Shown here one piece after another: positions 19,188 through 36,253 of a stretch of DNA of 40,784 bases. The DNA comes from Tissierellia bacterium (GTDB lineage: Bacteria > Bacillota > Clostridia > Tissierellales > Peptoniphilaceae). The position numbers were made by a program, and so were the translations under genes. The notes under the pieces are model-generated. The model did no database searches. It was not told the DNA's origin and saw only the letters and a list, made by a program, of their open reading frames with translations. The stretch is from positions 1-40,784 of the forward strand of contig JAUNVF010000022.1 in NCBI GenBank assembly GCA_030537815.1, read 5' to 3'. The number at the start of each line of letters is the position of its first letter. Within the stretch, counting starts at the first letter, position 1.

Positions 19188-20426
19188 ATGGCACAACAAA
19201 TTTCTGATCTTGAAAGAATCAAATACTTGGAGAATGGTGAAAAGGCAAAACCTGTATTTTCTAAAGAGGAGATGGGTAATAGAGTTGGAAAACTGAGAAA
19301 GTATATGGCTGATAATGATATTGACGCTATTTTGTTCAATTCATATCAAAATATATGCTATTACAGTGAATATCTTTATACTGCATTCGGTAGAAAATAC
19401 GGATTGGTAGTAACTCAAGACAAGCATGTTACCGTATCAGCAAATATCGACGGTGGAATGCCATGGAGAAGAAGTTACGAGGACAATATAGTTTATACAG
19501 ACTGGAAGAGGGACAATTACTATTTTGCTGTTAAAACTATACTCGACGAAGCTGGAATCAAGAAAGGTAAATTAGGTATAGAATTTGATGAAGTAAGCAT
19601 CGAATTTAAAGCTTTAATACAAGATGCATTCCCAGATTTTGAACTTGTAAATGTTGCAAATGATCTTATGAAGTTCAGAATGATAAAGTCTCAAGAAGAA
19701 ATCGATTTTATAAAGTCTGGAGCTCATGTATGCGATATCGGTGGATATGCCGTAGTCGACGCTATAAAAGAGGGCGTTCCAGAGTATGAAGTTGCACTTG
19801 CAGGTACTCAAGCAATGACGAGAAAGATAGCAGAACTTTATCCTCAAGTAGACCTTAGAGATACTTGGATTTGGTTCCAGTCAGGAGTCAACACAGATGG
19901 CGCTCATAACTGGGCAACAACCAAGAAAGTTCAAAAGGGAGAAATCCTGAGTCATAACTCATTCTCGATGATAGCTGGATATTATACAGCTCTTGAAAGA
20001 ACTATGTTCTTAGATCATGTCGATGATGCTTCACTTAGACTTTGGGAGATAAATGTCGAAGTTCATGAAAGAGGATTGGAATTGATTAAGCCAGGAGCTA
20101 AATGTTCTGATATCTGTGCTGAACTAAATGATATTTTCAGAAAATACGATTTATTAGCAAATAGATCTTTCGGTTATGGCCATTCATTTGGAGTTCTATC
20201 TCATTATTATGGTAGAGAAGCCGGACTTGAGCTGAGAGAAGATATTGAGACCGTATTAGAGCCAGGAATGGTAGTATCCATGGAACCTATGATCATGATT
20301 CCTGAAGGACAGCCCGGAGCAGGCGGATACAGAGAGCATGATATACTCGTCATCAATTATGATGGAACTGTAGAGAATATAACTAAATTCCCATATGGAC
20401 CAAAACATAATATCATAAAAAAGTAA
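19188..20426 (+). CDS. Creatinase (creatine amidinohydrolase)
   Basis: A 412-residue enzyme that hydrolyses creatine to sarcosine and urea. It belongs to the M24 'pita-bread' fold but matches Pseudomonas creatinase over its whole length as I remember that sequence, including SANIDGGMPWRR, FQSGVNTDGAHN, FGYGHSFG and MVVSMEPMIM. Using the Pseudomonas numbering I recall plus a constant offset of eight, the active-site residues are conserved: His240 (His232), Glu270 (Glu262), Arg343 (Arg335) and Glu366 (Glu358). The metal ligands of M24 aminopeptidases are absent, which excludes a prolidase. AAAGGAG precedes the ATG. It is driven by the sigma-54 promoter and followed by a transporter pair. Sarcosine could feed sarcosine reductase, a known Tissierella pathway; those genes are not in this window. 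Confidence 0.94.
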   Translation: MAQQISDLERIKYLENGEKAKPVFSKEEMGNRVGKLRKYMADNDIDAILFNSYQNICYYSEYLYTAFGRKYGLVVTQDKHVTVSANIDGGMPWRRSYEDNIVYTDWKRDNYYFAVKTILDEAGIKKGKLGIEFDEVSIEFKALIQDAFPDFELVNVANDLMKFRMIKSQEEIDFIKSGAHVCDIGGYAVVDAIKEGVPEYEVALAGTQAMTRKIAELYPQVDLRDTWIWFQSGVNTDGAHNWATTKKVQKGEILSHNSFSMIAGYYTALERTMFLDHVDDASLRLWEINVEVHERGLELIKPGAKCSDICAELNDIFRKYDLLANRSFGYGHSFGVLSHYYGREAGLELREDIETVLEPGMVVSMEPMIMIPEGQPGAGGYREHDILVINYDGTVENITKFPYGPKHNIIKK

Positions 20427-20439
20427 CTTAGAACCTTGT

Positions 20440-20484
20440 GGGGGCTTAAAACGGATGAGATATAAGATATCTCATTCGGCCCCC
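20440..20484 (+). other. Strong intercistronic hairpin between creatinase and symporter genes
   Basis: An outer stem GGGGGC/GCCCCC (20440-20445 with 20479-20484) encloses an inner stem of about nine to eleven pairs, ATGAGATAT/ATATCTCAT with loop AAG. No T run follows, so it is a poor terminator. It may protect the creatinase message or lower downstream expression. Confidence 0.65.
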
Positions 20485-20507
20485 TAAACTTTCTAGGAGG
20501 TATCGAT

Positions 20508-20615
20508 TTGAAAACTTGGGTTATCATGATTGGTTTACAAGCTCTGACTACTATTATCTCTTTGATAGCGATAATTATTTATATGAGGCAACCGGAAGAG
20601 GAAGGTGATATATAA
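20508..20615 (+). CDS. 35-residue single-span membrane protein, symporter small accessory protein
   Basis: A short frame starting with TTG, seven bases after a perfect AGGAGG (20495-20500). The product has one hydrophobic span (VIMIGLQALTTIISLIAIII) followed by a short charged tail (MRQPEEEGDI). Its stop codon overlaps the ATG of the symporter gene by one base (TAATG), so translation is coupled. Such 30-40-residue proteins occur next to sodium:solute symporters and are annotated as symporter small accessory proteins; YhdT next to PanF is a longer analogue. Their role is probably in assembly or stability of the transporter. A gene this small is easily missed. Confidence 0.8.
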   Translation: MKTWVIMIGLQALTTIISLIAIIIYMRQPEEEGDI

Positions 20616-22087
20616 TGGATTTGAGATTATGGTCTATTATAATGTTTGTCGGATTTCTTATACTGATGGGTGCATTGGCTGTAAAAGCCGGGAAATCAAA
20701 TCTCGAAGGTGAAGGAAATCTCGATGAGGAGTATTATTTGGGAGGAAGGGGAACGGGTCCGATTCTATTAGCATTTTCATATGTTACAGGATCAGTTTCT
20801 GCAGCCGCATTTATGGGCGAGCCGGGAATGATGAGCCAGATAGGTTGGCCTTATTATTGGATAGTCATATCAATTATACCCGGAATGATTTTTCCTGCCA
20901 TTTTACTCATGAAAAAACTGAGAGAGCATTCGGAAGAGCTGGGATCTCTAACTATTCCACAGTATTTGGGTCAGACATACGAATCTGATGCTTTAAGAGT
21001 CATAATCGCAGTATTCATATCAGTTTTTTATATTTTCCCTCTGGTAGCTCAGTTTAAAGGGGCGGCCATCCTGCTTGAGCAATTTACTAATATCCCATTT
21101 GTCTGGGGAGTATTGATATTCACCGGACTCATAGCGGTATATTGTGCAACGGGCGGGCTGAGATCGGCCATTTGGACTTCAGTAATCCAGGGAATCCCGA
21201 TGTTCTTTATAGCTATCGCCTTGGTATGGCTTTCGCTAAAAGTAGTTGGAGGATTCAATGGAATAGAACAGACCCTAAGCAATTCACATCCGGAGATGTT
21301 AAATATCGTTCAGGAAAGAGCGCCCGGTGCGATGTTCCCGATTGAAGGTGTAATCGGAGTATTCGCTTACTGGTTGATCATGTTTATCGCACAACCATAT
21401 CTTTGCTCGAGATTTATGAGTATTAAGGACACAAAACCTAAGACCATAGGAATATTTTTAATAACTACTCTGGTTTTGACTATTGTATATAATACATTAT
21501 ACTTATCGGGACTTGCAGGTAGAATTATATATCCCGGAATCGAAGGTGACTATATAACATCACAATTAGCAATAGACTATCTTCCAACATTCTTTGCAGC
21601 ATTTATGATGATTGGAATCTTCGGGGCCATGATGTCTACAACGCAGTCTATGATACTCGTAATAGCGCAAGCTATAGCTAATGACATATACCTAAAAACT
21701 ATAAATCCTAATGCATCTGATAAAAAGGTTGTAAATTTAACTAGAATAGCGATATTCGTGGTTTCTGGAATCTGTTTTGCATTGACAGTGATGAAGACAC
21801 CGGAATTCCTATCCGTATTCTTCTATCTGGGACTTAGTGGAATTGGAGCCTGTATAGCCGTGCCATTGATAGCCGCAATCCTATGGCCTAAGGCTAGAAA
21901 ACAAGGCGCCATCGCAGCGGCGATTGTCGGTCCGATATCTTATACTGTATTTAATAATTTGATGGATATTAATTTATGGTTCTCTTCATTTTTAGCAGTA
22001 ATAATATCGGGAATACTTTTAATAAGTATATCACTTTATATGAATAAAAAAGGTTTTCAAGAAAAACTAAGCGAATCGCTTGAATAA
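20615..22087 (+). CDS. Sodium:solute symporter (SSS family), probable creatine importer
   Basis: A 490-residue membrane protein with about 13 hydrophobic spans. SSS family marks include EYYLGGRGTGPILLAFSYVTGSVSAAAFMG in the first spans, GGLRSAIWTSVIQG, and GIFGAMMSTTQSMILVIAQAIANDIYL, which carries the conserved Ser/Thr of the second sodium site. PanF/PutP-like relatives import carboxylates and amino acids with Na+. No close match of known substrate is recognised; creatine is inferred from the shared operon and sigma-54 promoter with creatinase. It ends at a strong convergent terminator. Confidence 0.9.
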   Translation: MDLRLWSIIMFVGFLILMGALAVKAGKSNLEGEGNLDEEYYLGGRGTGPILLAFSYVTGSVSAAAFMGEPGMMSQIGWPYYWIVISIIPGMIFPAILLMKKLREHSEELGSLTIPQYLGQTYESDALRVIIAVFISVFYIFPLVAQFKGAAILLEQFTNIPFVWGVLIFTGLIAVYCATGGLRSAIWTSVIQGIPMFFIAIALVWLSLKVVGGFNGIEQTLSNSHPEMLNIVQERAPGAMFPIEGVIGVFAYWLIMFIAQPYLCSRFMSIKDTKPKTIGIFLITTLVLTIVYNTLYLSGLAGRIIYPGIEGDYITSQLAIDYLPTFFAAFMMIGIFGAMMSTTQSMILVIAQAIANDIYLKTINPNASDKKVVNLTRIAIFVVSGICFALTVMKTPEFLSVFFYLGLSGIGACIAVPLIAAILWPKARKQGAIAAAIVGPISYTVFNNLMDINLWFSSFLAVIISGILLISISLYMNKKGFQEKLSESLE

Positions 22088-22109
22088 ATTAATTAACTGC
22101 TTGTTTTAA

Positions 22110-22139
22110 AAGCCGCAAAATCTTATGATTTTGCGGCTT
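22110..22139 (+). terminator. Bidirectional terminator between symporter and activator genes
   Basis: A perfect 13-pair hairpin, AAGCCGCAAAATC/GATTTTGCGGCTT with loop TTAT, in the 64-base gap between convergent genes. It is flanked by TTTTA on the left and CTACATTT on the right, so it can stop transcription from both sides. Confidence 0.82.
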
Positions 22140-22151
22140 CTACATTTAAAC

Positions 22152-23561
22152 TCATTGTAATTTCTGTCTATTTATCCTATAGCTCAATGTCTGTCTGCTC
22201 AAGCCTAGATCCCTTGCAGTCTGTGCTACATTACCTCTATTCTTTAAAAGCTTTTCTCTAATAATCTCATGTTCGAGATCTAAGAGATATTTATCCAAAT
22301 CTATTTTGTCCTGATAAATTACTCCCGGATTTTTTTCTGTATTATTTATTTCAGAACTTACTTTTTCCTTTAGGAAATGAGGCAGATTACCGTGATTTAT
22401 CTCCAGTCCATCTTCGGCCATTATACAGCTATGTTCAACAGCATGCTCTAGCTCCCTGACATTACCGGGCCATGAATACTTTTTAAATATCTCTACCGAC
22501 TCCCTATCGAATCCCCTTATCTTTTTATGACATCTCTTATTGTATTTGTCGATAAAGTATTCCAATAATATCGGTATATCGTCTTTCCTCTTCCTCAAAG
22601 GCGGAATTTTCACCGTTACAACTCCCAATCTGTAATAGAGATCACGCCGCAGAAAGCCTTCTTTTATAGCTTCATATGGATCGATATTTATGGCACTCAC
22701 CAGTCTGAAAGTTATCTTCTCTTCTTTTGTTTCGCCAACTCTCCTTATCTTTCCAGTCTCTACAGCTCTCAATATCTTAGCCTGTAGATTTAAACTCATG
22801 GAATTTATCTCATCTAAAAATAATGTTCCACCCTTTGCCTCTTCAAATAATCCCGCTGAATTTTCAGCTCCTGTGTAGGCTCCTTTTGAAGTTCCAAAAA
22901 GGAGTGATTCTAAGAGATTATCGGGAATGGCAGCGCAATTTATCGGTACAAATCTCCCCTTTACATTGCTTTCATTATGAATACTCTGCGCAAATAATTC
23001 CTTTCCCGTACCGGTTTCGCCGTATATTAGAACATTAGATCTCGTTTTAGCTGCCAATTTCGCATTTTCAAGTGTTTCCTTAAATAATATATTTTCACCT
23101 ATTAAATCTTCAAATATATATTTAGGTTTTTCCTTTACCTCTGTAATAGCTTTAGGTTCGTGGTGATGAAAGACATCCATTATCTTATAAAATTTGGATA
23201 TATCTTTCGTTATCGTCATTACCCCGACCATATCTTCTTCCTTTACAAGAGGATAAGATGACGATATGGTCAGTACATTTTTACCGTAAATAGTGGTATA
23301 ATTCTGCACCATATTCTCTATGGCTTCTTTGGTCTTTAAACATTCCATAGTTGCTGAATTATACCTCTCTGAGATATAGACTTCTTCAAGAGTTTTCCCT
23401 AAAACATCCTCCCTCTTGACATCGTCAAGCATCTCTGAAGCTTTATTGAATAATAGAATCTTACTATTCATATCGACGACAAAAATACAATCATCAATTA
23501 AATCAAACATCTGAACATATGCCTTTGCAAATTCCATGTCCATAACATCAATATAATCCAT
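22152..23561 (-). CDS. Sigma-54-dependent transcriptional activator (PAS-AAA-HTH, RocR type)
   Basis: A 469-residue enhancer-binding protein. Domains: N-terminal PAS sensor (about 12-125, FVVDMNSKILLFNKASEM); AAA+ domain (about 155-390) with Walker A GETGTGKE, the sigma-54 contact loop GAYTGA (usual GAFTGA variant), Walker B GGTLFLDEI and WPGNVRELEH; C-terminal Fis-type helix-turn-helix (NVAQTARDLGLSRQTLSYRINR). The organisation is like RocR and other amino-acid catabolism activators. It is convergent with the creatinase operon, whose promoter is of sigma-54 type, so it is the obvious activator, presumably sensing creatine or a product through PAS. A TATAAT about 30 bases upstream could serve as its promoter. 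Confidence 0.92.
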   Translation of the reverse strand: MDYIDVMDMEFAKAYVQMFDLIDDCIFVVDMNSKILLFNKASEMLDDVKREDVLGKTLEEVYISERYNSATMECLKTKEAIENMVQNYTTIYGKNVLTISSSYPLVKEEDMVGVMTITKDISKFYKIMDVFHHHEPKAITEVKEKPKYIFEDLIGENILFKETLENAKLAAKTRSNVLIYGETGTGKELFAQSIHNESNVKGRFVPINCAAIPDNLLESLLFGTSKGAYTGAENSAGLFEEAKGGTLFLDEINSMSLNLQAKILRAVETGKIRRVGETKEEKITFRLVSAINIDPYEAIKEGFLRRDLYYRLGVVTVKIPPLRKRKDDIPILLEYFIDKYNKRCHKKIRGFDRESVEIFKKYSWPGNVRELEHAVEHSCIMAEDGLEINHGNLPHFLKEKVSSEINNTEKNPGVIYQDKIDLDKYLLDLEHEIIREKLLKNRGNVAQTARDLGLSRQTLSYRINRQKLQ

Positions 23562-23636: not shown

Positions 23637-23668
23637 AAAAAAGACAGCCCTGTATTGGGCTATCTTTT
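23637..23668 (-). terminator. Terminator of the RuBisCO-like operon
   Basis: AAGACAGCCC (23641-23650) pairs with GGGCTATCTT (23657-23666) with one mismatch. On the minus strand the hairpin is followed by seven T's, just after the dehydrogenase stop codon. Confidence 0.78.
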
Positions 23669-23679: not shown

Positions 23680-24783
23680 TTATATATTTCCATTTAGAAA
23701 TTCTGTTCCAAGTTTATCTGCCAAGAGTATGGCTGCATAAACTGAATCTCTTGTCGCATAAGGAGGCATATGATATACGCTCTCCTCCCCAGGCTGATAA
23801 GCTATATCCATTACTTTTTCAATCTTTTCCTTCACATCTTCGACGAGTCCAAGCTGTTTTAATGTGATCGGCAAGTCCATAGAAGCGCATAATCCCATAA
23901 ACTCATATAATTCATCATCGCTCACCCTCTCCATTACAAGTACGCAGAATGTACCGAAAGTGACTTTTTCTCCATGAAGGAATTTATGACATTCGGGTAT
24001 TTCAGTTAAAGCATCCTGAATCGAATGAGAGCAAGATATCCCGCAGTTCTCAAATCCGACTCCGCTTAGATAAGTACATGCCTCGACCACAGATTCCAAC
24101 TCCGGTGATACGATTTTCATATCATTCGACATAACCGCCTTTAAACCATCTCTTAAAATTATTTCATAGCTGAGTTTCGCCAGTCCAAGAGCAGTAGTCG
24201 ATACTTCTGTACCGAAAACATTTGGATATGCATTTCTGTAGCTTATCCTAGCATCAAAATAAGTAGATAAGGCATCTCCGATTCCGGCCTTTAAAAATTT
24301 CGTCGGTGATTTTGCTATTACTTCGGTATCGACGATTACTATATCAGGATTTCTAGGAAAATATTCAACTCCAACTACGGCCCCTTCTTCGGAGTACATG
24401 ACAGATACAGAGCTACATGGAGCGTCGGAGCAGGCTATAGTCGGCGCCATAATGACATTGCAATTCGATTTAAAGCCCGCCGTCTTTGCCGTATCCATGA
24501 CTTTTCCTCCGCCAAGACCTATGACTACCTCGGATTCTTCACTTGCAATTATTCCCTTTAATCTCTCGACCTCTTTATATGTCGTCTCGCCGTTGAATAC
24601 TTCAAAATGAAATCCTATCCCACGCTCTTTTAAACTCTTTTTAATATCTTCACCATTTTCCCTAAGAGCTGTATTGCCGGTTAAAATAAATACTCTCTTG
24701 CCATAATTCTCGACCAGTTCTCCAATCCTCTTTAGGAGTCCCGGACCCTGCAAATATTTTGGAGTCGTTTGAATTTGCCTCAT
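23680..24783 (-). CDS. Iron-containing alcohol dehydrogenase, glycerol dehydrogenase (GldA)-like
   Basis: A 367-residue group III alcohol dehydrogenase. Residues 1-160 form an NAD-binding domain with GLGGGKVMDTAK and APTIACSDAPCSS. The metal-binding half has GIGDALSTYFDA (Asp ligand), CSHSIQDALTE (His) and LHGEKVTFGT (His), the pattern of GldA and related polyol dehydrogenases. It would interconvert a polyol and a ketose or hydroxyketone. As the last gene of the operon it probably acts on the substrate taken by the kinase or on a product of the RuBisCO-like enzyme. Simple glycerol dehydrogenase is possible, but this context is not a glycerol or dihydroxyacetone one. Confidence 0.87.
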   Translation of the reverse strand: MRQIQTTPKYLQGPGLLKRIGELVENYGKRVFILTGNTALRENGEDIKKSLKERGIGFHFEVFNGETTYKEVERLKGIIASEESEVVIGLGGGKVMDTAKTAGFKSNCNVIMAPTIACSDAPCSSVSVMYSEEGAVVGVEYFPRNPDIVIVDTEVIAKSPTKFLKAGIGDALSTYFDARISYRNAYPNVFGTEVSTTALGLAKLSYEIILRDGLKAVMSNDMKIVSPELESVVEACTYLSGVGFENCGISCSHSIQDALTEIPECHKFLHGEKVTFGTFCVLVMERVSDDELYEFMGLCASMDLPITLKQLGLVEDVKEKIEKVMDIAYQPGEESVYHMPPYATRDSVYAAILLADKLGTEFLNGNI

Positions 24784-24794
24784 TCTGGCACCTC

Positions 24795-25463
24795 CTATTC
24801 AAATACCTCAAAAACTTCTTCCATACTTCTTCTAGTCTTAACTCTGTGATCGGTATTTGTATATCCAAATGCGATCATATTTGCAATCTTAAAATGTTTT
24901 GGATCATATACCTCATGCTCGACAAGGATTTCATGAACCTTATCCTGCTCAAATCCCTCTATGGGGGTTGAGTCTATACCCAGCATTGCAGCCACTGTCA
25001 ACATATTTGTAAATGGTATATATGTCTGCTTGCAAGTCCAATCAAATAATGCCCTGTCGCTTTCCGATAATTTGAAATCTACATCTTGAAATTTCCTATA
25101 CTTTTCAACTCTGTCCTTTAAGAGATCCGGGGGGAAATTCTGTATATCATTTTGAATATAATAAAGGTATTCTGAATCTGGCTTCATATCTTCAGGAACT
25201 CTAGCCAATATAAATACTATATGGCTCGCTCCGTCAAAAGCTCTATGCGCTCCCCATGAATAAGGTCGCAATTCTTCAAGCAATTCCTTATTTCTAATCA
25301 ATACGAATTTCCAAGGCTCATATCCAAGAGAACTTGGCGATAATCTGCCGGCTTCTAAAATCGTATGAAAATCTTCATCCGACACCTTTTTATCGGGATC
25401 ATATCCCTTGCATGTATATCTGTTTTTAAATATATCTTCAATATATCTATTGATATCTTTCAT
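24795..25463 (-). CDS. Nitroreductase family protein (NfsB-like)
   Basis: A 222-residue FMN-dependent oxidoreductase with RYTCKGYDPDKKVSDEDFHTILEAGRLSPSSLGYEPWKFVLI at the start, the typical R-x-x-x-K-x-(Y/F) and SPSSxxxxPW flavin-binding pattern, and a C-terminal MIAFGYTNTDHRVKTRR. Family members reduce nitro groups, quinones or enones with NAD(P)H. AAGGAG precedes the ATG. Its place between the HAD phosphatase and the dehydrogenase is unexpected for a sugar operon; a role in reducing an enone-like intermediate is conceivable but speculative. Confidence 0.87.
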   Translation of the reverse strand: MKDINRYIEDIFKNRYTCKGYDPDKKVSDEDFHTILEAGRLSPSSLGYEPWKFVLIRNKELLEELRPYSWGAHRAFDGASHIVFILARVPEDMKPDSEYLYYIQNDIQNFPPDLLKDRVEKYRKFQDVDFKLSESDRALFDWTCKQTYIPFTNMLTVAAMLGIDSTPIEGFEQDKVHEILVEHEVYDPKHFKIANMIAFGYTNTDHRVKTRRSMEEVFEVFE

Positions 25464-25474
25464 ATATATCTCCT

Positions 25475-26152
25475 TTATACTAATTCTATCTCTGAAAAAT
25501 CAGCTATCAAATAGTCGCTCGAATCCAATAGATCTCTTTTTTCATCTCCTGTCATTATCTTCTCCACTACCCCTACCGTCATAAAACCGGCTTCTCCAGC
25601 TTTTTTATTAGCAAGGGCAGAATCCTCAAAGACGATAATCTCCTCTGGCTTTAATTTCATTTTTTCTGAAAGGTATTCAAAGATCTTAGCGCTATTCTTA
25701 TCTGTATTTATTTCTTCTGTCGTTATAATATATTCGAATTTATCGTAAATTCCCGTAGCTTTCAGTCCGGCTTCTACGAATTTTTTTTGATTTGCACTGG
25801 CTAAGGCTATCCTTATGCCTTTTTCGATTAAAGATTCTATAAAATCAAAAGCAGCTTCCTTTAATTCTATCTTCTGATATATCTGGTACATAAAATTCGT
25901 CATATAGTCGAAAATCTCCTGTTCATCTTCTTCTATTTGGTAGACTTCCTTGAGATATGCGGCGCCTCCTCGGAATCCCCTCGGCTTTATTTCATGTATG
26001 AGATCTTCATTCGGAGTCTTTCCTCTATCGACCAGCATATTTACAAGCATATCCTCCATAGCCGACATCGAATCTACGAGAGTCCCATCAAAATCGAATA
26101 TTATAGCTTTTATAGAATCCCTTTTTAATCTTATTTTATTTTGTGAGTTCAT
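25475..26152 (-). CDS. HAD-superfamily phosphatase, subfamily IA
   Basis: A 225-residue haloacid dehalogenase-fold hydrolase: motif I FDFDGTLVDS, motif II LASAN, motif III Lys in NTDKNSAK, motif IV FEDSALANKKAGEAG. The helical cap (about 30-95) is like phosphoglycolate phosphatase and beta-phosphoglucomutase. It overlaps the 3' end of the RuBisCO-like gene by 17 bases and I see no good ribosome site, so translation is probably coupled. By position it may dephosphorylate the RuBisCO-like enzyme's product, as MtnX does after MtnW, but it is not recognisably MtnX. Confidence 0.85.
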   Translation of the reverse strand: MNSQNKIRLKRDSIKAIIFDFDGTLVDSMSAMEDMLVNMLVDRGKTPNEDLIHEIKPRGFRGGAAYLKEVYQIEEDEQEIFDYMTNFMYQIYQKIELKEAAFDFIESLIEKGIRIALASANQKKFVEAGLKATGIYDKFEYIITTEEINTDKNSAKIFEYLSEKMKLKPEEIIVFEDSALANKKAGEAGFMTVGVVEKIMTGDEKRDLLDSSDYLIADFSEIELV

Positions 26153-27446
26153 ATATAGATTTTTCGGGATCGTAAACTCCCCACAATTCCAATGCCTCTC
26201 TCAATTCAATATGATCTTTAGCATATTCCTCGAGAGGTATATCCTTCATCGCCGCTTCTGCCGCTTGATTTAGAGAAGCTATTCCAGCTTTTATTCCCGA
26301 TGGATGAGCATGCATTCCCGCACCCGCTCCAATAACTATATTATTTCCAAAATCTTTCATGATGGTAGGAATCATACCTGCGTGAATTCCCGCACATGGA
26401 CTTGGATAAGTCTTTTTCAAATCATGGAATGGGCTAATTAGACTTTGTCCAACTCTTATATATCTCTCTTTTAAACCGGGGACCTTTCCATATGCACAAT
26501 TGTATACAACTATATCTGCACCGTCCATCCTCATGAATTTACCATGTACTAAATGAGAAGCCAGTCCGGTCTGATTTCCGAGATAGCTTGCTCCTGCATA
26601 TGCCGGGTGAGCGAGTATTGGTACTTTTCCGTCAACTGCATCTATTACCGCTCCTATAGCTCCATATCCGCAAGCATGGACATTTACCATGAGTGCATTA
26701 CAGCCCATATCCATCGCCATCTTAGCTTTCTCCAACATCTTATCCTGTCTGTCGGTAATATTCGGGAAATAAAGCACTTCTCTGCCTGTTTCTCTCTTGA
26801 CTTCATGAACGACTTTCATACAAGCTTCGATTCTGTCTTTTAATGGTGCGTAAACCGGGTCTGCAATCAGCTCATCGTCTTTGATAAAGTCGATTCCACC
26901 ATATGCCAGTTCTTTAAACTGCCTTTGAATAATATCTACAGGGATTCCCGTACATGGTTTTATCATAGCTAAAACAAATGGCCTCTCCTTGACTCCGGTC
27001 AATTCTCTAAGACCTTCGATTCCAAATTGCGGCCCTTTGAATCCGTCGATAAAACTCTTAGGAAATTCAATATCCAAAACCTTTAGATTTTTAGTCATCG
27101 ATATATTTCCGAATACTGTACTCAATAGCTCGGGGAATTGCTGTCCGATATTTACCCATGGGAATGCTATCCTGACTACGACACTGAGCTTTCCTTCGGG
27201 TCTAGAAGCCTCGTATCCAGGTATGGGATATACACCTATTACTCTTCCAACATGAGCCTTCCTTACCTCGGGAGTTTCGTCGGGAACGGGCATCCATGTT
27301 CCCGTCGTCTGCTCGACTGCAACGGATCCCGCTCTATTCACATAGTCCGCCATTTCATCAGTCATTATATATGTGACAACTATAAATTCATCGAGATTGA
27401 GTGATTCTGTTTGACAAAAAATTATTGGATCATATTTGTAATTCAT
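26136..27446 (-). CDS. RuBisCO-like protein (form IV), reaction unknown
   Basis: A 436-residue homologue of the RuBisCO large subunit. Compared with spinach numbering, kept residues are Glu60 (E45), TGTW including Thr65/Trp66 (50-51), Lys175 (K163 in MIKPCTG), the carbamylated lysine with its metal ligands Lys201-Asp203-Glu204 (K189, D191, E192 in GIDFIKDDE), His294 (H280) and Lys334 (K321). Changed are Asn123 to Thr, Lys177 to Cys, Arg295 to Pro, His327 to Val and Ser379 to Cys. Magnesium binding and enolisation look possible; carboxylation does not. The ATG overlaps the kinase stop by one base behind AAGGAG. Known form IV roles are methionine-salvage enolase or isomerase and apionate-pathway enzymes; the kinase/HAD/GldA context fits none I can name. 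Confidence 0.9.
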   Translation of the reverse strand: MNYKYDPIIFCQTESLNLDEFIVVTYIMTDEMADYVNRAGSVAVEQTTGTWMPVPDETPEVRKAHVGRVIGVYPIPGYEASRPEGKLSVVVRIAFPWVNIGQQFPELLSTVFGNISMTKNLKVLDIEFPKSFIDGFKGPQFGIEGLRELTGVKERPFVLAMIKPCTGIPVDIIQRQFKELAYGGIDFIKDDELIADPVYAPLKDRIEACMKVVHEVKRETGREVLYFPNITDRQDKMLEKAKMAMDMGCNALMVNVHACGYGAIGAVIDAVDGKVPILAHPAYAGASYLGNQTGLASHLVHGKFMRMDGADIVVYNCAYGKVPGLKERYIRVGQSLISPFHDLKKTYPSPCAGIHAGMIPTIMKDFGNNIVIGAGAGMHAHPSGIKAGIASLNQAAEAAMKDIPLEEYAKDHIELREALELWGVYDPEKSIYELTK

Positions 27447-29026
27447 TATTTTGCATCTCCTTGATTTTCTTTATTACATTCTCCGCTTTTTTTACATTTT
27501 ACATTTCTAAGATCATAGCAGGATTTAAATGCCAAGCTCATATGCTCTTTTAAAATATTCATATAATAATCATATGTTATCCCGTAAAATTCCGTATGCT
27601 CGGGAACCGGTTTAAATTCTTTATCAGGCACGAGTATTTCATCAAGTTTTGCCTTCATATCTTCGATATCTCCAATTGCATAAGCAGCTAAAACTGCATT
27701 CGACATCGTAGCACCTTCTTTTTTCTTCATAGTTCTTACATCTATGTCGAGCATATCCGCCTTTATTTGATTCCAGACATCCGATCTACTTCCACCTTCT
27801 GTAATAACCGCTTCTTTTACCTCAACTCCGGCTTCCCTAATCTTCTTGACCAATGTCATATACTCGTATCCTATCGATTCGAGAATCGATCTCCACATCT
27901 CTCCGAGTTCTGTATTGCTCGTCATATTCAAGAAGCAGCCGCTCGCATTTGAGACAAAGCCTTGACCTCCCTGAAGATATGGAAAGAATAATGTGCCATT
28001 AGATCCGACCGGTACTTTTTCCGCCTTCTCATTAGCCATCTGATAAAATTCATCTTCGCCTTTTCTATTCATCACCTGGTCTCTAAACCATTGTAAAGAC
28101 AAACCTCCCGTCCTGATATATCCCCAGTAGAAATATGTATCGGGTACGGTGGCAATACTAAAATAAAGGCCTGAGTTCTCACTCAATTCTTTATGTATTC
28201 CGTCGACCATAATTCCAAACATTGCAGCAGTGCCTGCTACATCTGAAGCTGTACCATGATCGTAAACCCCACAACCTACAAATGACTGCATCGTATCACC
28301 TGCGCCGGCTATGATGGGAATACCTTCAACCAGTCCACATCTATCCGCCATCTCGGCAGTCAATTTACCTACGATATCTGTTGGCTTTACAATTTTTGGA
28401 AGGTATTTCATCGGTATGCCCAGCATCTCCATCTGCCTTTCAGACCATTTCTTTTTCTCGGCTTCATATCCGATTATCCATCCACCCAAAGTCGCATGGT
28501 CGATAAAAGCTTCATCTGCTTTCAAGCCTGCAAGCCTAGATAAGACATAGGGACCATTATTTAAAATCTTAGCGCCTCTATTTTTAAACTCTTCATTATT
28601 TTTGATGAGCCACATAGAGATAATCGGCGGCTGAAGACATTCTATAACTGAATTTCCACTTTCCTCTATCCATATCGGATCGAGAGTCTTAACATATTCA
28701 GCCTCTTCGCTCGCCCTTGAGTCGAGATAAGGTATATATGGGGTGATGGCATTTCCATCCTCGTCTACCCCGACGACTCCCATTATGATTCCATCTCCAC
28801 AAATCGCCCTAATATCATTTGGATTGATACCACTTTTTTCGACGCAGTATTTAATCCCATTTACAACATGATTCAAATACATATCAGCATCCATCTCGGC
28901 CCATCCCGGATTTGGATATTTGATTTCATTTGGATAACTATGCTGGCAAATGCAATTAAAATCTCCGTCGTAAATCGCCGACTTAGTACTCTGCGTTCCA
29001 CAATCAAAACTTAAATAATACTTCAT
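27446..29026 (-). CDS. FGGY-family carbohydrate kinase (xylulokinase-like)
   Basis: A 526-residue sugar kinase. The N-terminal half starts SFDCGTQSTKSAIYDG (phosphate-binding loop) and has an EMDAD segment; the second half has AGAGDTMQSFVGCGV (catalytic Asp in GDT), DVAGTAAMFG, GGLSLQWFRD, PYLQGG and ITEGGSRSDVWNQIKADML (adenosine motif). The substrate cannot be named; ketopentoses and ketotetroses are candidates. The last 25 residues form a cysteine- and lysine-rich tail (SCYDLRNVKCKKSGEC) not usual for xylulokinase. GGAGG precedes the ATG. It probably phosphorylates the substrate used by the RuBisCO-like enzyme encoded next. Confidence 0.9.
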   Translation of the reverse strand: MKYYLSFDCGTQSTKSAIYDGDFNCICQHSYPNEIKYPNPGWAEMDADMYLNHVVNGIKYCVEKSGINPNDIRAICGDGIIMGVVGVDEDGNAITPYIPYLDSRASEEAEYVKTLDPIWIEESGNSVIECLQPPIISMWLIKNNEEFKNRGAKILNNGPYVLSRLAGLKADEAFIDHATLGGWIIGYEAEKKKWSERQMEMLGIPMKYLPKIVKPTDIVGKLTAEMADRCGLVEGIPIIAGAGDTMQSFVGCGVYDHGTASDVAGTAAMFGIMVDGIHKELSENSGLYFSIATVPDTYFYWGYIRTGGLSLQWFRDQVMNRKGEDEFYQMANEKAEKVPVGSNGTLFFPYLQGGQGFVSNASGCFLNMTSNTELGEMWRSILESIGYEYMTLVKKIREAGVEVKEAVITEGGSRSDVWNQIKADMLDIDVRTMKKKEGATMSNAVLAAYAIGDIEDMKAKLDEILVPDKEFKPVPEHTEFYGITYDYYMNILKEHMSLAFKSCYDLRNVKCKKSGECNKENQGDAK

Positions 29027-29039
29027 TTAATCCCTCCTC

Positions 29040-29978
29040 TTAATCTCTCAACAATAATTCGGCCGTCTCGACATCGGTATACAAAATATTTATAGCTCCC
29101 GATCTAATCGTCGCCTTTATAGCATCTACTTTTTCCAGCCCATATGCGACAGCTATTACCTCGGGACATCTATCGATGTCGTCGAGCTTCGCTCCAAAGA
29201 AATTGTCGGATTCTTCTATGCAGACTTCCCCTCCATCAGCCCCTAGAAAAGAACCACATACGACTGCTACCGCCCCCTTTTCTTTAGCTCTGAAAATCTC
29301 GTCTTGAGTCATCTCGGATTTGCCGAGAGTTGAATTCTCGGTTATTTCTCCAATCCCTATTATTGATAGGTCGAGATTGCGATACATATCGATAACCGGC
29401 TTTATAGACTTGTCATTAGACAATTCTCTTTTAAGTAATTTTGACCTGATCACCATGGGTGCATTTAGCTCCATCGTGATACCTTTTGAATTTTCTGCAA
29501 ATCTCACGCAATTTTTATTTGAATTCCACTCGTCATTTTCGTATTCGATACCGCCCATAAGGGAAATGAATCTATACCTGTTTAAGCTGTATATATTTGT
29601 ATATCTGCTGCAAGACTCGATAGTCGTACCGGCTGAAATACCTATATTTGCCTCATCCTTTAAATTCTCATTCAATTTATAAGACAATTCTTCAGCTATT
29701 CTCCTGCCCTTTATTTCCTTATCATCTGAATCTGTCTCGACGACCACAATATCATCAAGACCGTATTTTTTAAGAATTCCTTCTCGATAATTCTCTTCTT
29801 TGGAAAAAGGATCCATGACTTTTATATTTACAATCCCGTAATTTCTAGCTTGTTCCAAAAATCTTCCGATTTGGGATCTTGACATAAATAATTTGTTAGC
29901 GATTTCCTTTTGACTCATATTATCGTAATAATACAATTTGCTGATCTTGACTAATAATCTCAATCTCTCGTATTCCAT
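29040..29978 (-). CDS. SorC/DeoR-type sugar-binding transcriptional regulator
   Basis: A 312-residue regulator. The N-terminal helix-turn-helix is clear (YYYDNMSQKEIANKLFMSRSQIGRFLEQAR, about 17-46). The rest is a SorC effector domain related to sugar-phosphate isomerases: GISAGTTIESCSRY for phosphosugar binding, SLMGGIEYENDEW, and AVAYGLEKVDAIKATIRSGAINILYTDVETAELLL at the end. Family members bind phosphorylated sugars and act as repressors or activators of the adjacent operon. It is the first gene and is followed after 13 bases by the kinase, so it most likely controls this operon through the palindrome at 30045-30065. Confidence 0.9.
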   Translation of the reverse strand: MEYERLRLLVKISKLYYYDNMSQKEIANKLFMSRSQIGRFLEQARNYGIVNIKVMDPFSKEENYREGILKKYGLDDIVVVETDSDDKEIKGRRIAEELSYKLNENLKDEANIGISAGTTIESCSRYTNIYSLNRYRFISLMGGIEYENDEWNSNKNCVRFAENSKGITMELNAPMVIRSKLLKRELSNDKSIKPVIDMYRNLDLSIIGIGEITENSTLGKSEMTQDEIFRAKEKGAVAVVCGSFLGADGGEVCIEESDNFFGAKLDDIDRCPEVIAVAYGLEKVDAIKATIRSGAINILYTDVETAELLLRD

Positions 29979-30044
29979 CTATCATAATCCCTCTCTTTAG
30001 AACAATCGTATCATAGTATAATCTAAGAAACAATCATTTGCCTT

Positions 30045-30065
30045 ATATTGGGCATATGCCAATAT
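30045..30065. promoter_or_regulatory. Candidate SorC operator palindrome
   Basis: The 10-base palindrome GGCATATGCC (30051-30060) is flanked by ATATT(G) on the left and AATAT on the right, a symmetric element with one extra base. It lies about 70 bases upstream of the regulator's ATG, a normal position for an autoregulated SorC-type operon. Confidence 0.5.
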
Positions 30066-30068
30066 TTT

Positions 30069-30083
30069 TTGTAATCGTTTTCA
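30069..30083 (+). promoter_or_regulatory. Catabolite-responsive element (cre) for CcpA
   Basis: TTGTAATCGTTTTCA fits the cre consensus WTGNAANCGNWNNCW at every defined position. It lies next to the palindrome in front of the SorC-led operon. A cre here implies glucose-type catabolite control, which supports a carbohydrate catabolic role for the RuBisCO-like gene cluster. Confidence 0.62.
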
Positions 30084-30165: not shown

Positions 30166-31371
30166 TTAATTATTTTCTCTCAATAATAGTGCCGGTTCTC
30201 TCTTGTCCATCTTATTTAATGAAATAATGGAGGATAGAGGTCCTAGCGCCGTACCTATCAAAATTGTAGCTAAGAGTATAATTAATAATTCTGGTATGGT
30301 AGGCTCTAAAAATGGCATCTTCAGCTTTTCGCTAAAGGCCCTTGCAAATAAAAGCGATACTGCAAATGAAGAAACCGATCCGATGACAGCACCGCTGACA
30401 TTGATCAATAATGTCTCGGCCAGACAGATCGCCTTAAGTTTTTTCTTTGTAGCTCCAAGTATCCTAAGCATTGCGAATTCTCCCTTCCTCTCCCTTATAG
30501 AGATGGAATATACGAGACTCAATACAAAGAAAGCGAGTATCCATACCAGGGCTATTAAAATATATACATATGTCAATAAATGTTGAACATTTTCTGAGAC
30601 TTCAGACATCATCTGTTTGGATATCAAACCGTAAATCTGTTCACCTTTAAATTCCTCATTTATCGCCTTTGATACATCTCTGGGATCGACTCCCTTTTTA
30701 ACCTTAACCATGACCGAAGATATATAATCTTCTTTTGCAGCAAGTGGTTCGCCGAGGATTTTCTCATATTCCTTAGCCAACTTTTTCGCTTCCTGCATAG
30801 TCATAAATACAGAATTATCAAATCCCATACCGGTCTTAGCCAATTTTCCTTTTAAATTGAATTCCTGATTGAAAAACTTTACTTTTCCGTTAAAATCTCC
30901 CTGAATATTATTGCCGCCCACTACTTCACCCTCTTTTAGCGGCAATTTTATTTGTTTTTCAAGCCAGGGTACAACAGTGAAGTCCTTGTCAAAATCAACA
31001 CCTATTACCTGTATTGGAAATGAACAACAACCTGCTGACAGGGTCGCCAAGAAAAATTCGGGAGATGTCTTTTCGACGCCATCAATCTTTTTAATCCTGT
31101 CTTCTACGCTGCGATCAAAAAAGAAACTATTGGGTTCCCCTCTTAGAATCGCTCCAGCGATCTTACTGTCATACCCTTGTGGCACTACAATGACATCAGC
31201 TCCCAGTCTCGCGGAAAGTGAAGTCATTCCGTTTTTCAAGCTGAATATTAAAAAGCTGCTCATAAAGAGTATAAAGCAGAGAACTCCCGTCAAGACTATC
31301 AAGCCGGTAGTCCTCCCCGGTTGGTTCTTTATATTCTTTTTAGCCAGACCGACTGTTTTTAAATCCTTCAT
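30166..31371 (-). CDS. FtsX/MacB-like ABC transporter permease (third permease)
   Basis: A 401-residue permease. One span near the N-terminus (LIVLTGVLCFILFMSSFLIF) is followed by a large extracytoplasmic domain (about 50-265, with a GCC cysteine pair near residue 108) and three C-terminal spans. The FtsX signature is visible in RKGEFAMLRILGATKKKL. MacB/LolC-type systems use such permeases for mechanical work on extracytoplasmic proteins rather than ordinary transport. It is the distal gene of the iron operon, five bases or fewer from the FMN-binding lipoprotein, which it may serve. Confidence 0.85.
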   Translation of the reverse strand: MKDLKTVGLAKKNIKNQPGRTTGLIVLTGVLCFILFMSSFLIFSLKNGMTSLSARLGADVIVVPQGYDSKIAGAILRGEPNSFFFDRSVEDRIKKIDGVEKTSPEFFLATLSAGCCSFPIQVIGVDFDKDFTVVPWLEKQIKLPLKEGEVVGGNNIQGDFNGKVKFFNQEFNLKGKLAKTGMGFDNSVFMTMQEAKKLAKEYEKILGEPLAAKEDYISSVMVKVKKGVDPRDVSKAINEEFKGEQIYGLISKQMMSEVSENVQHLLTYVYILIALVWILAFFVLSLVYSISIRERKGEFAMLRILGATKKKLKAICLAETLLINVSGAVIGSVSSFAVSLLFARAFSEKLKMPFLEPTIPELLIILLATILIGTALGPLSSIISLNKMDKREPALLLRENN

Positions 31372-31372
31372 C

Positions 31373-31801
31373 CTATTCGATAGCCATCTCTAAAGCTTTT
31401 TCTACAGCTTCCTTGAAGCTCTGATGTGAAACAGTCGCACCGCTTATTACTTCAACTTGATCAATATCTTGTGTTTCAATTAATTCTTGAGGGTATTGTT
31501 GTGCAGATTCAACTGCATTTTGAGCTATTTTATAAAGACCCGGATTAGTTATTTTTCCATCTTCTTTGCCGTAATCCTCGTCCTTTTCTTTGCCTTCATT
31601 GTCTAGATTTTTAATTTCACATGCTGTGATCTTACCATCTTTTACTTCAAGACTGACATTTATTTTGCCTCCCCACTCGTCGGGATTGCTGTCTGCAGTA
31701 TAAGTTCCGTCTTTTAGCTCTGCTACCTTTGTTTCAGGAACATCTTTGCTGCATCCTACGATGAGCAAGAGCGATAATGCTAATACCAATAACTTCTTCA
31801 T
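31373..31801 (-). CDS. FMN-binding domain lipoprotein
   Basis: A 142-residue lipoprotein. The signal MKKLLVLALSLLLIVGCSK has lipobox LIVGC. The mature part is a single FMN-binding domain with DGTYTADSNPDEWGGKINVSLEVKDGKI and the flavinylation-type motif VEVISGATVSHQSF. In this family ApbE attaches FMN covalently to the Thr of D-x-x-S-G-A-T; here Glu or Val occupies the usual Asp position, so attachment is likely but not certain. Placed among ferrous iron uptake genes, it probably carries electrons outside the membrane. The stop codon of the upstream ATPase abuts its ATG. Confidence 0.85.
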   Translation of the reverse strand: MKKLLVLALSLLLIVGCSKDVPETKVAELKDGTYTADSNPDEWGGKINVSLEVKDGKITACEIKNLDNEGKEKDEDYGKEDGKITNPGLYKIAQNAVESAQQYPQELIETQDIDQVEVISGATVSHQSFKEAVEKALEMAIE

Positions 31802-32508
31802 TATATAAACTCCTTCATTATATTGTCCTCAATTACTGGTCTTTTACGGTTCTTTCTCTCTTCTCTGGCTATCCTTCCATGCTCGAGCATTACCATTCTC
31901 TCAGCTTCGTCTCCAACTTCAGGGTCATGTGTTACGACTATTATAGTACTTCCTGCATTATGAAGCTTTTCTAAAATATCCATAACTAAATATTCATTTT
32001 TTTCGTCGAGATTTCCTGTCGGCTCATCGGCGAGCAAAATCGCGGGGTGATTTATCAATGCCCTGGCTATACAAACCCTTTGCTGTTCTCCTCCGGATAA
32101 TTGATTCGGAAGATGCTTTGCCCTGTCTTTTAAGCCGACGGCCTCAAGTGCAGCCATAGCCTCTTCTTCATCCGGCATCGAGTGATAGTACTGCGCCATC
32201 ATAACATTTTCAAGAGCAGTAAGGTAATTTATCAAGTGGAACTGCTGGAATACCAGTCCGATTTTATCTCTTCTTATTATAGTCAATTCTTTTGGCGAAA
32301 GTTTTGATATATCATCATCTTCCAATATAACTTCGCCGATGGACGGTTTGTCCATACAGCCTATTATATTTATCATAGTAGTCTTTCCACTTCCGGAAGG
32401 ACCCATTATAGAAAGCCATTCTCCCTTTTCTACAGTCAGATTAATCTGATCAAGAGCTTTTACTTCACCATATATTTTGGAAACATCTCTAAGTGTCAAT
32501 ATATCCAT
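31801..32508 (-). CDS. ABC transporter ATP-binding protein (MacB/LolD type)
   Basis: A 235-residue ATPase: Walker A GPSGSGKTT, Q-loop VFQQFHLI, signature LSGGEQQR, Walker B ILLADEPTGNLDE, and the switch His in VVTHDPEVGDEA. The FQQFxLIxxLTALENVMM pattern is typical of the MacB/LolD/FtsE class that pairs with FtsX-like permeases. The frame extends 15 codons upstream, but AAGGAGGAAAAT just before the ATG at 32508 fixes this start. It lies between permeases of the operon and probably powers the 33.6 kb and 34.9 kb ones, or all three. Confidence 0.92.
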   Translation of the reverse strand: MDILTLRDVSKIYGEVKALDQINLTVEKGEWLSIMGPSGSGKTTMINIIGCMDKPSIGEVILEDDDISKLSPKELTIIRRDKIGLVFQQFHLINYLTALENVMMAQYYHSMPDEEEAMAALEAVGLKDRAKHLPNQLSGGEQQRVCIARALINHPAILLADEPTGNLDEKNEYLVMDILEKLHNAGSTIIVVTHDPEVGDEAERMVMLEHGRIAREERKNRKRPVIEDNIMKEFI

Positions 32509-32518
32509 ATTTTCCTCC

Positions 32519-33652
32519 TTATTCTCCACGTAGTACCAGAGCCGGTTCAACATCTACAGCCTTACTTACCGGAATCAGGCAAGCAATCACCGTTATTATT
32601 ACCGACACCAATATAGTCAATGGTACGAGGCTCCACAAGAAACTTACTTTACGGGCAAATACACTTATACTCACCCTCTGTGCAAATATATATCCCAGCA
32701 CAACTCCAAGCAATCCTCCAGCTATACCAAGTACGACACCTTCTCCTAAAAAGTCTATAACCACTGATTTATTAGATGCCCCGAGAGCTTTTTTAAGACC
32801 TATTTCTCTTCTTCTCTCAGTTACAACGGCCATCATAGTGGTGGATACACAAATCATCATGATAAAAAGAACGATAACTGTAACTATCCAAACTAGTGCC
32901 TGTAATTTATTTAATACGACATCTTGTGATTCCGTAACTCTTTTTACGAGCTGTGGAGTTAAGTCTCTATCATTTTCAGAGATTTTATCGGCGATTAGTT
33001 GCAGAGATTCAGCTTCAGCTTCGACACTGCATTCTACAACATCAAGTTCTTGATTACCTATTATTTCTCTAATATCTTCAAGACTCATGAATATCAGTTC
33101 TTCTTCTTTACCACCTGTAGTCACAGTCCCTGCTACTTCAAAGTCCGTAGCGGTCATGTCGCCATCTTCTTTGGGAGTATTTAAAGTGAATTTATCTCCC
33201 GTTTCAAGTCCTATGGCTTTTGAAATCTCATTTCCGAGAAGTACTTGTTTATGATCTGTAGGCCAGTCTCCATTTATTAGCCAATAAGGGCTATTTTCTT
33301 TCGCTCCGGCCAAATCAGTTCCTGCAACCATATAAGGCTGCTCATTAATCTTTGCATTCTGATAAATATATGGGGCAAGCCCAACTAATTTATCGCTCGG
33401 TATTAATTCTGTAATTTCTTTTAGTTGATCTTCTGAAATCTTTTTATCGCTATCAGTTGGAATTATTATCATATTTGCACCATATGACCTAAATTCCTTT
33501 CCCATCTGTCTAGGTATGTCATAGTAAATAGTAACCAATCCCGACAAAATCGTCGCTCCCATGGCAATAGCTAAAAGAGCTGTTATCATCCTCGAACGCC
33601 TTCTCGCAAGAGATCCGGTTACCATTCGCCAGTACATAGATCTGTTTTTCAT
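32519..33652 (-). CDS. FtsX/MacB-like ABC transporter permease (second permease)
   Basis: A 377-residue permease with one N-terminal span (MITALLAIAMGATILSGLV), an extracytoplasmic MacB-like domain (about 45-245, starting SYGANMIIIPTDSD) and three C-terminal spans. The conserved cytoplasmic segment is ERRREIGLKKALGASNKSV. It starts nine bases after the preceding permease ends. Campylobacter jejuni has two adjacent permeases of this kind in its p19 iron locus (Cj1661-Cj1662, as I recall), which this pair matches in kind and place. Confidence 0.88.
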   Translation of the reverse strand: MKNRSMYWRMVTGSLARRRSRMITALLAIAMGATILSGLVTIYYDIPRQMGKEFRSYGANMIIIPTDSDKKISEDQLKEITELIPSDKLVGLAPYIYQNAKINEQPYMVAGTDLAGAKENSPYWLINGDWPTDHKQVLLGNEISKAIGLETGDKFTLNTPKEDGDMTATDFEVAGTVTTGGKEEELIFMSLEDIREIIGNQELDVVECSVEAEAESLQLIADKISENDRDLTPQLVKRVTESQDVVLNKLQALVWIVTVIVLFIMMICVSTTMMAVVTERRREIGLKKALGASNKSVVIDFLGEGVVLGIAGGLLGVVLGYIFAQRVSISVFARKVSFLWSLVPLTILVSVIITVIACLIPVSKAVDVEPALVLRGE

Positions 33653-33661
33653 GCTCTCCTC

Positions 33662-34945: not shown

Positions 34946-34960
34946 TATTCCACCTCAATT

Positions 34961-36226: not shown

Positions 36227-36253
36227 CCCCGTTTTAAAACATCAAATCAAGAT

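Follow-up and report, generated by a model that had tools for sequence, protein, structure and literature searches.

The Tissierellia bacterium contig JAUNVF010000022.1 (GenBank assembly GCA_030537815.1), taken here over positions 1 to 40,784 and called the window throughout, carries at 23680-29978 a run of six minus-strand genes built around a RuBisCO-like protein (RLP). In transcription order these encode a SorC regulator, an FGGY kinase, the RLP, a HAD phosphatase, a nitroreductase, and a GldA-like dehydrogenase. This is a real RLP operon that lies outside the functional branches we could test, and it has no assigned reaction as far as we searched. Our preferred reading, to which we give a probability of roughly 45%, is a regulated sugar- or polyol-processing operon in which the kinase would feed an enediolate-forming RLP, acting as an isomerase or C3 epimerase on a ketose phosphate, followed by the HAD phosphatase. 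An earlier note on this DNA had arrived at a scheme of this kind. The clade position of the RLP, its pairing with a kinase, its enolization residues, and the recurrence of a dehydrogenase-kinase-RLP-SorC grouping speak for that scheme; its six-gene set as a conserved unit is not supported.

Phylogenetic Position of the RLP

We placed the RLP in two trees, both rooted by our choice on the OiaX group and built without the R. rubrum isomerase, the hamamelose oxygenase, and the second apiose RLP. In the 101-row tree, the window RLP grouped with those of three other loci (L168, L169, and L170) with SH-aLRT support of 98, outside the MtnW, isomerase-type, and OiaX-containing groups. For a more careful tree we chose 48 of these rows, leaving out, among others, long-branch L192, L023, L113, L002, L114, L115, and L097, and form I. 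The same four rows, hereafter the W clade, were recovered with support of 98/93, and the MtnW (8 rows, with 2oek and 4nas), isomerase-type (6 rows), and OiaX-containing (10 rows) groups each stood apart at 100/100. The earlier note had named a position inside a characterized clade as the result that would undo its proposal; in both trees the RLP fell outside each of the characterized clades included. The 48-row tree further joined the W, MtnW, and isomerase-type rows in an 18-row group (98/91), a grouping not resolved in the 101-row tree, which joins 53 other RLPs at 94.

Active-Site Residues

Residues were compared in a 101-row alignment anchored to form I RuBisCO, where we take the spinach numbering and residue roles to apply to the aligned positions. 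The groups compared take in only part of the rows, and 4nas was counted apart from the six MtnW rows. All four W rows retain E60, T65, W66, N123, K175, K201, D203, E204, H294, G333, K334, and G381. The same four have lost K177 (C), H298 (A), H327 (V in three, C in one), and R295 (P in three, S in one), losses that presumably include the residues binding the second (P5) phosphate of ribulose bisphosphate. Every MtnW row (6/6) has G at E60, K at N123 (4nas likewise), and S or T at K334. We take the N123 lysine of MtnW to be K98, its general base. The isomerase-type rows (6/6) have H at E204 and R at K334. Both OiaX rows, one of them annotated as OiaX, keep K334 and R295 and carry D at E60, F at W66, G at N123, and V at G333.

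On these assumed roles, the W clade appears to have an intact metal site and an intact acid-base set for enolization, and to lack the MtnW base. Because the enolization residues are kept and the P5-phosphate residues are lost, a ketose monophosphate is the predicted substrate, and we consider it likely that the RLP enolizes a monophosphate. The residues thus fit the chemistry that had been proposed from the sequence earlier, namely enolization of a phosphorylated ketose by the RLP, and their pattern argues against the MtnW reaction. K334, which we take to be the loop-6 lysine used in CO2 chemistry, cannot by itself tell a proton shift from a carbon-carbon reaction.

Family Models and Distribution

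Membership in form IV is indicated by the RuBisCO large-chain N-terminal and barrel domains, both above cut-off (PF02788 and PF00016), together with replaced catalytic or binding residues in the window protein (K177C, R295P, H298A, H327V, S379C, G380A, and G403A). The protein remained under the cut-off of all six matching NCBIfam models. These include the two MtnW models (TIGR03332, 312 bits against 514; PRK09549, 368 against 409), the form III model (245 against 497), and OiaX (216 against 700). As controls, three MtnW-type RLPs (L205, L206, and L146) passed both MtnW cut-offs and a plasmid-borne OiaX (L233) passed the OiaX model (782 against 700). The other W-clade proteins came close to the PRK09549 cut-off, with 408.6 bits for L168 (0.4 bits short), 406.9 for L170, and 380 for L169.

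Three identities, MtnW, OiaX, and carboxylating RuBisCO, were rejected for the window RLP, and a fourth did not fit. MtnW fails on both model cut-offs, on N rather than K at the N123 position, and on clade position; OiaX fails on its cut-off and on the FGGY kinase that stands in place of a DUF1537-type (four-carbon acid sugar) kinase. A carboxylating RuBisCO of forms I-III does not fit the loss of K177, R295, H298, and H327 or the form III score, and a methylthioribulose-1-phosphate isomerase-type RLP does not fit a protein that lacks the E204H/K334R pattern and falls outside the short-RLP clade.

The distribution of the RLP gene is patchy. Among 61 genomes, only the source genome has this RLP at E ≤ 1e-3, with none in the 36 others of its family, one of which is a 97% complete member of the same genus. 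At the same threshold 18 of 391 genomes in a class sample matched, as did 41 of 398 in a phylum sample at E ≤ 1e-50, the source genome being counted in both. The closest RLPs in the phylum sample were 69% (genome G516), 57% (G620), and 49% (G548) identical, or 69, 56, and 48% by BLASTP. A scan of GTDB contigs by exact peptide patterns gave L001 as the closest, at 38%, among the best 80 of at least 577 relatives (at least 593 pattern matches). Searches around G079, G310, and G516 found no further relatives, and a search of 367 plasmid records, with six loci opened, found reference RLPs and no FGGY partner.

Pairing of RLPs with FGGY Kinases

We mapped up to seven genes on each side of the RLP in 55 loci, including the window. 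Neighborhoods were fetched for 11 of the 17 non-window matches in the class sample, 23 of the 40 in the phylum sample, and 14 of 17 in a further set; of 56 loci prepared, L171 was dropped, its 438-aa RLP open reading frame (ORF) having been displaced by overlapping ORFs during picking. Neighbor families were assigned by phmmer at E 1e-3 using the window proteins and the HAD and nitroreductase of L102 as queries. Gene labels on the map were given by eye from cluster examples, a part of them being checked by Pfam or NCBIfam.

Of 50 loci, 16 had an FGGY kinase within seven genes of the RLP, where 1.17 would be expected from the FGGY count of each genome at an assumed 950 genes per megabase (L001, L114, L115, L205, and L206 were dropped for want of a kinase count). 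These kinases form at least five well-separated groups, with three label changes, in a grouping where RLP-less FGGY genes came only from relatives of the window kinase and its genome's own GlpK; they are separated groups rather than five proven recruitments. In the nearest relative, L168 (G516), an ADP-ribosylglycohydrolase gene, a xanthine/uracil-type permease gene, the kinase (63% identical), and the RLP (69%) follow one another on one strand. Identities between the window and L168 by codon position (kinase 0.71/0.81/0.34; RLP 0.76/0.87/0.43) are as under constraint. The proposed kinase-RLP pairing is supported, both by recurrence well above expectation and by orthology in L168.

The window kinase itself fell under all 12 reported FGGY model cut-offs, the best being XylB (232 bits against 380), and glycerol kinase was rejected as its identity (TIGR01311, 131 against 590). 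FGGY_C matched two proteins in the genome, this kinase and a GlpK encoded elsewhere (771 bits against 590).

Organization of the Six-Gene Unit

The unit comprises the following features:

29040..29978, minus strand: SorC/DeoR_Bac-type sugar-binding transcriptional regulator, first gene of the unit (PF04198, E 3e-54)
27446..29026, minus strand: FGGY-family carbohydrate kinase (PF00370 and PF02782)
26136..27446, minus strand: RuBisCO-like protein, form IV, W clade (PF00016, E 2.4e-48; PF02788, E 5.6e-8)
25475..26152, minus strand: HAD-IA family phosphatase (PF00702 and PF13419)
24795..25463, minus strand: nitroreductase-family flavoprotein (PF00881, E 4.7e-24)
23680..24783, minus strand: GldA-like iron-containing polyol dehydrogenase (Fe-ADH; PF00465)
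23639..23668, minus strand: terminator-like hairpin, a 12-pair stem and T-run 11 bases past the GldA stop (consensus match only)

All six genes were where the earlier note had put them, and Pfam agreed with each of its family names. Both stop/start overlaps it described are also real: one base (TAATG) is common to the kinase stop and the RLP start, and the last 17 bases of the RLP gene overlap the HAD start. The remaining intergenic gaps measure 11, 11, and 13 bases. A purine-rich stretch precedes five of the six gene starts, the exception being the HAD gene, which starts inside the RLP gene. We thus treat 23680-29978 as a single unit, presumably with a common transcript. The hairpin scan gave four such sites against 4.0 in shuffled sequences, so only the placement of this one after GldA counts. 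GC content (0.39 in the unit, 0.37 in the window) gave no sign of recent foreign origin.

Curated models narrowed few of the proteins. The regulator stayed below both NCBIfam cut-offs (DeoR_Bac, 178 bits against 420; LsrR, 113 against 486), and the HAD protein reached only that of the generic HAD-IA subfamily among the best 25 of 42 matches. The nitroreductase reached neither of two models (PRK11053, 83 against 227). The GldA-like protein passed the glycerol dehydrogenase subfamily PRK09423 (415 against 336) and reached no equivalog, falling short of the propanediol/glycerol equivalog NF047954 (366 against 700).

Conservation of the Neighborhood

The earlier note had suggested checking whether close RLP homologs keep the six genes together. 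As a conserved unit the set did not hold up, since none of the 54 other loci had all six families (phmmer, E 1e-3). The best match, L195, has five (RLP, SorC, FGGY, Fe-ADH, and a HAD gene seven genes off, the last one mapped), and four are present in each of L193, L194, and L102. A SorC regulator was found in 18 of the 55 loci, a count that includes the window. A dehydrogenase of the Fe-ADH family, an FGGY kinase, and a SorC regulator lie near the RLP in L193, L194, and L195. The GldA-like gene of L193, five genes from the RLP, passes PRK09423 and is the only such gene in another locus. The dehydrogenase-kinase-RLP-SorC grouping recurs in L194 and L195, with a xylulokinase that passes its curated model (531 and 533 bits against 380) and a different Fe-ADH subfamily. 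In these two loci the xylulokinase and Fe-ADH_2 genes diverge from the RLP, with the SorC gene also near. The Fe-ADH_2 proteins fail curated dehydrogenase models, the nearest being glycerol-1-phosphate dehydrogenase (159 and 148 bits against 413).

L102, whose RLP is 43% identical and outside the W clade, encodes in order an FGGY kinase, the RLP, a class III aminotransferase, a HAD protein, a ferredoxin-type nitroreductase, and an amidohydrolase. This echo of four window families is no more than suggestive, since we located it by seeking such echoes. Its HAD protein is 22% identical to that of the window and its nitroreductase gave no usable BLASTP match. A class III aminotransferase gene adjoins the RLP in L102 (Pfam-checked), L112, and L113, two of which have an FGGY kinase, and these loci may apply the same logic to an amino sugar or amino polyol.

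Within the W clade, L169 has the RLP with a short-chain-dehydrogenase-like gene, a different FGGY kinase (26%), and a phosphotransferase system (PTS)-IIC-like gene, and L170 has the RLP with a B3/4-domain gene. Other recurring contexts were SorC, FGGY, and anaerobic glycerol-3-phosphate-dehydrogenase-like genes; a PTS and FucA-type aldolase with SorC; triosephosphate isomerase, RpiB, and Tm-1; class III aminotransferase; zinc-type dehydrogenase; and mtn operons. In L199-L202 the RLP ends operons of the first of these types, and in L200-L202 a small cupin-like gene (labeled by eye) directly precedes it. Phosphatases downstream of RLPs were of the ComB type in 11 of 12 group B loci (described below), MtnX in the mtn operon L206, and a HAD protein in L102.

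Proposed Pathway and Alternatives

In the pathway we favor, the FGGY kinase would phosphorylate a ketose, or a polyol that is oxidized afterwards. The RLP, with Mg2+ on a carbamylated lysine, would remove the C3 proton of the 2-keto-1-phosphate (or an equivalent) to give an enediolate and return the proton elsewhere, yielding an isomer or C3 epimer. The HAD enzyme would then strip the phosphate from this product, a step to which we give even odds. GldA would interconvert the polyol or diol and keto forms, and the nitroreductase may catalyze a flavin-dependent reduction of a product or serve as an electron carrier; we are less sure of these two roles than of the enolization of a monophosphate by the RLP.

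Several observations weigh against this pathway. The three other W-clade loci yielded no HAD, nitroreductase, or GldA gene; of these, L168 lies on a contig ending just after the RLP and L170 on a short one. A single bacterial family (f71) supplies ten of the 16 FGGY loci, so these loci are not independent. The f71 RLPs may moreover be neighbors of ordinary glycerol or xylulose genes under another logic: of the three glycerol-kinase-like proteins compared there, in glp-type operons, those of L199 (605) and L200 (676) pass the GlpK equivalog cut-off of 590 bits and that of L197 (589) falls just under it, and the xylulokinases of L194 and L195 belong to the same family of bacteria. Close relatives of the window kinase (four at 46-47%) are encoded in genomes where no RLP was found at E ≤ 1e-50, and an RLP partner is thus not required for such a kinase; the neighbors of four RLP-less relatives (L222-L224 and L226) gave no hint of a substrate. 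Finally, the six-gene unit contains no aldolase or transporter gene (the absence of a transporter had been noted before), which leaves net catabolism unexplained.

An alternative that we judge unlikely, though with some support, places the W clade within methylthio- or 5-deoxy-sugar salvage as one of its branches, its RLP acting on a 5-substituted ribulose 1-phosphate from an MtnA encoded elsewhere and the HAD, nitroreductase, and GldA enzymes finishing the path without oxygen. The 18-row group and the scores close to PRK09549 (368 to 408.6 of 409) point this way, as does the ADP-ribosylglycohydrolase and permease pair directly upstream of the L168 kinase, which fits a nucleoside-derived sugar. 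The genome (84.6% complete) also encodes, outside the window, an MtnA (TIGR00512, 418 bits against 279) and a FucA-type fuculose-phosphate aldolase (PRK06833, 365 against 264). A second MtnA-like gene (176 against 279) adjoins a gene resembling methylthioadenosine (MTA) or methylthioinosine (MTI) phosphorylase, which misses the MTAP model (250 against 275) and meets the MTI model (227 against 223). A 5-substituted ribulose 1-phosphate and an aldolase forming dihydroxyacetone phosphate may therefore be present in the cell, and the combination of MtnA and FucA-type aldolase keeps this alternative alive. Against it stand the missed MtnW cut-offs, N in place of the MtnW lysine, the kept E204 and K334 where isomerase-type rows have H and R, and the failure of the 101-row tree to resolve the sister relation. 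An FGGY kinase also has no place in a path whose substrate comes from MtnA.

A variant that we hold to be improbable would make the W clade a third branch beside the two methylthio-sugar RLPs. It would have a new activity with the loop-6 lysine kept, on a nucleoside-derived ketose monophosphate from its own FGGY kinase, and the enediol product would be dephosphorylated by the HAD enzyme and reduced by the nitroreductase and GldA. If this were true, an oxygen-free end would take over from the dioxygenase that serves methionine salvage in aerobes.

It is similarly improbable that the genes share no pathway, with the nitroreductase and GldA being general redox genes behind a kinase-RLP-HAD core. 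In favor of this, none of the 54 other loci keeps the full set, and a nitroreductase and a PRK09423-passing GldA were each detected in only one other locus (L102 and L193, respectively), the divergent HAD and nitroreductase of L102 counting on the same side. However, the genes share one strand with overlaps or gaps of 11-13 bases and a terminator-like hairpin after the last, and the order of the FGGY, RLP, HAD, and nitroreductase genes is the same in L102, which comes from a different family within the class.

We are more doubtful still of a carboxyl transfer, decarboxylation, or similar carbon-carbon reaction through the loop-6 lysine, as by OiaX in D-apiose breakdown. K334 is indeed kept in the W (4/4) and OiaX (2/2) rows and lost in the MtnW and isomerase-type rows, but the OiaX rows differ from W at E60, W66, N123, and G333 and keep R295. 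The OiaX cut-off is far off, the OiaX-containing group is separate at 100/100, and the unit has no DUF1537-type kinase, whereas the OiaX locus has one next door.

A path like that of autoinducer-2, with the RLP replacing LsrG as isomerase on a phosphorylated diketone, is very improbable: SorC and FGGY genes recall what we take to be the lsrR-lsrK pair, and a phosphorylated C5 diketone presumably resembles the MtnW substrate, but the LsrK (153 bits against 528) and LsrR models are both missed and no other gene of the unit is of Lsr type.

Window Surroundings and Rest of the Genome

A Pfam scan of the 36 window ORFs of at least 90 aa, two of which had no match, reported no MtnA (IF-2B), class II aldolase/MtnB, acireductone dioxygenase, cupin, or DUF1537-type kinase. 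The earlier statement that these partners are missing thus holds across these ORFs, with MtnA present elsewhere in the genome.

Upstream of the unit on the minus strand (30166-39482) lies a cluster of iron-uptake type. It encodes an FTR1 permease, an Fe2+ transport protein, an FtrD-like membrane Fe-S protein, two ABC ATPases, three FtsX/MacB-type permeases, an FMN-binding-domain protein, and a DUF4418 protein. On the other side (19188-23561), a sigma-54 regulator gene (22152-23561; PrdR model, 379 bits against 795) faces genes for a sodium:solute symporter and an M24 peptidase; it lies 118 bases from the GldA stop, beyond the hairpin, and this region is probably a separate unit. Two adjoining plus-strand one-carbon genes (1381-5480) encode a homocysteine methyltransferase with pterin- and B12-binding domains and a homocysteine methyltransferase fused to methylenetetrahydrofolate reductase. 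A second nitroreductase-family gene, of the TM1586 type, is at 12306-13100.

The MtnA equivalog of the genome (L118, contig C11 of G000) ends an apparent operon for a BMP-type nucleoside ABC transporter, and a short-chain-dehydrogenase-like gene follows (labels by eye). That operon looks like one for nucleoside-sugar salvage, apart from the RLP operon. From its apparent clostridial kin, the source organism would be an anaerobe.

Comparison with Known Systems

Published work describes enediolate formation as central to RLP mechanisms, with later steps that vary, and only a handful of RLP activities as characterized (PMC10176493). A statement citing a review holds that isomerase and/or epimerase activity is likely for most RLPs, and the same source describes an RLP of unassigned function that has relatives in Moorella and lies next to two genes, one DeoR-type and one epimerase-type (PMC7325909). 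MtnW/MtnX, the R. rubrum isomerase, and the apiose RLPs are treated in PMC6302742; PMC5575542 and PMC4384745 are further sources. Judged by titles and opening abstracts, the open-license papers listed in our searches included none on an FGGY-linked RLP and no reaction assigned to Bacillota RLPs of this kind; subscription journals may hold one.

MtnW (2,3-diketo-5-methylthiopentyl-1-phosphate enolase, form IV, YkrW type) is the top-scoring characterized family for the window RLP and is, with 4nas, among its top solved structures. The two are alike in an RLP followed by a HAD phosphatase and in the loss of the residues that we take to bind the P5 phosphate. Unlike MtnW, the window RLP keeps E60 and K334, has N at N123, belongs to a separate clade, and has no MtnA/B/D partners in its unit; its HAD protein passes the HAD-IA model, whereas the MtnX of L206 passes HAD-IB models.

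The isomerase-type short RLPs, represented by a Shinella mtnK-mtnA-transketolase locus and RLPs of about 380-395 aa from members of the class, are likewise form IV, and one ancestor was possibly common to them, W, and MtnW (98/91). They differ in E204H and K334R (6/6), in being 42-64 residues shorter than the window protein, and in their separate clade (100/100). Their isomerase function is presumed from one neighborhood and earlier work. OiaX (3-oxo-isoapionate-4-phosphate decarboxylase of the D-apiose pathway) resembles the window RLP in keeping K334 and in having a kinase gene next door, and differs in the four-carbon acid sugar type of that kinase, in its separate group, and in several active-site residues.

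The group B RLPs of other Bacillota (L172-L183) show 43-46% identity, retain the residues kept in W (12/12), and have lost K177, H298, and H327 alike. In their loci the RLP is accompanied by a phosphoenolpyruvate (PEP) hydrolase-like TIM barrel, a 2-phosphosulfolactate phosphatase (ComB) family protein in 11 of 12, and a Tm-1-like protein, behind a glycerol-3-phosphate-responsive antiterminator (GlpP) in 7 of 12; one member of three of these families was Pfam-checked. They differ from W in 12 of 12 rows at R295 (L), S379 (G), G380 (G), and G404 (A), and no FGGY or Fe-ADH gene was detected nearby by phmmer (E 1e-3). The MtnW equivalog PRK09549 nevertheless accepts one of them (L172:6604-7920, 416 bits against 409), which TIGR03332 rejects (370 against 514). 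Since group B has N rather than K at the MtnW lysine position (12/12), PRK09549 may mis-annotate such RLPs, an annotation hazard that this comparison exposes.

The characterized RLP activities are a comparison set for the origin of RuBisCO. The operon described here falls within a broad set of RLPs from Bacillota that retain more of RuBisCO's active site than is left in MtnW and that occur beside at least five kinds of FGGY kinase, and its own kinase offers a direct way to the RLP substrate.

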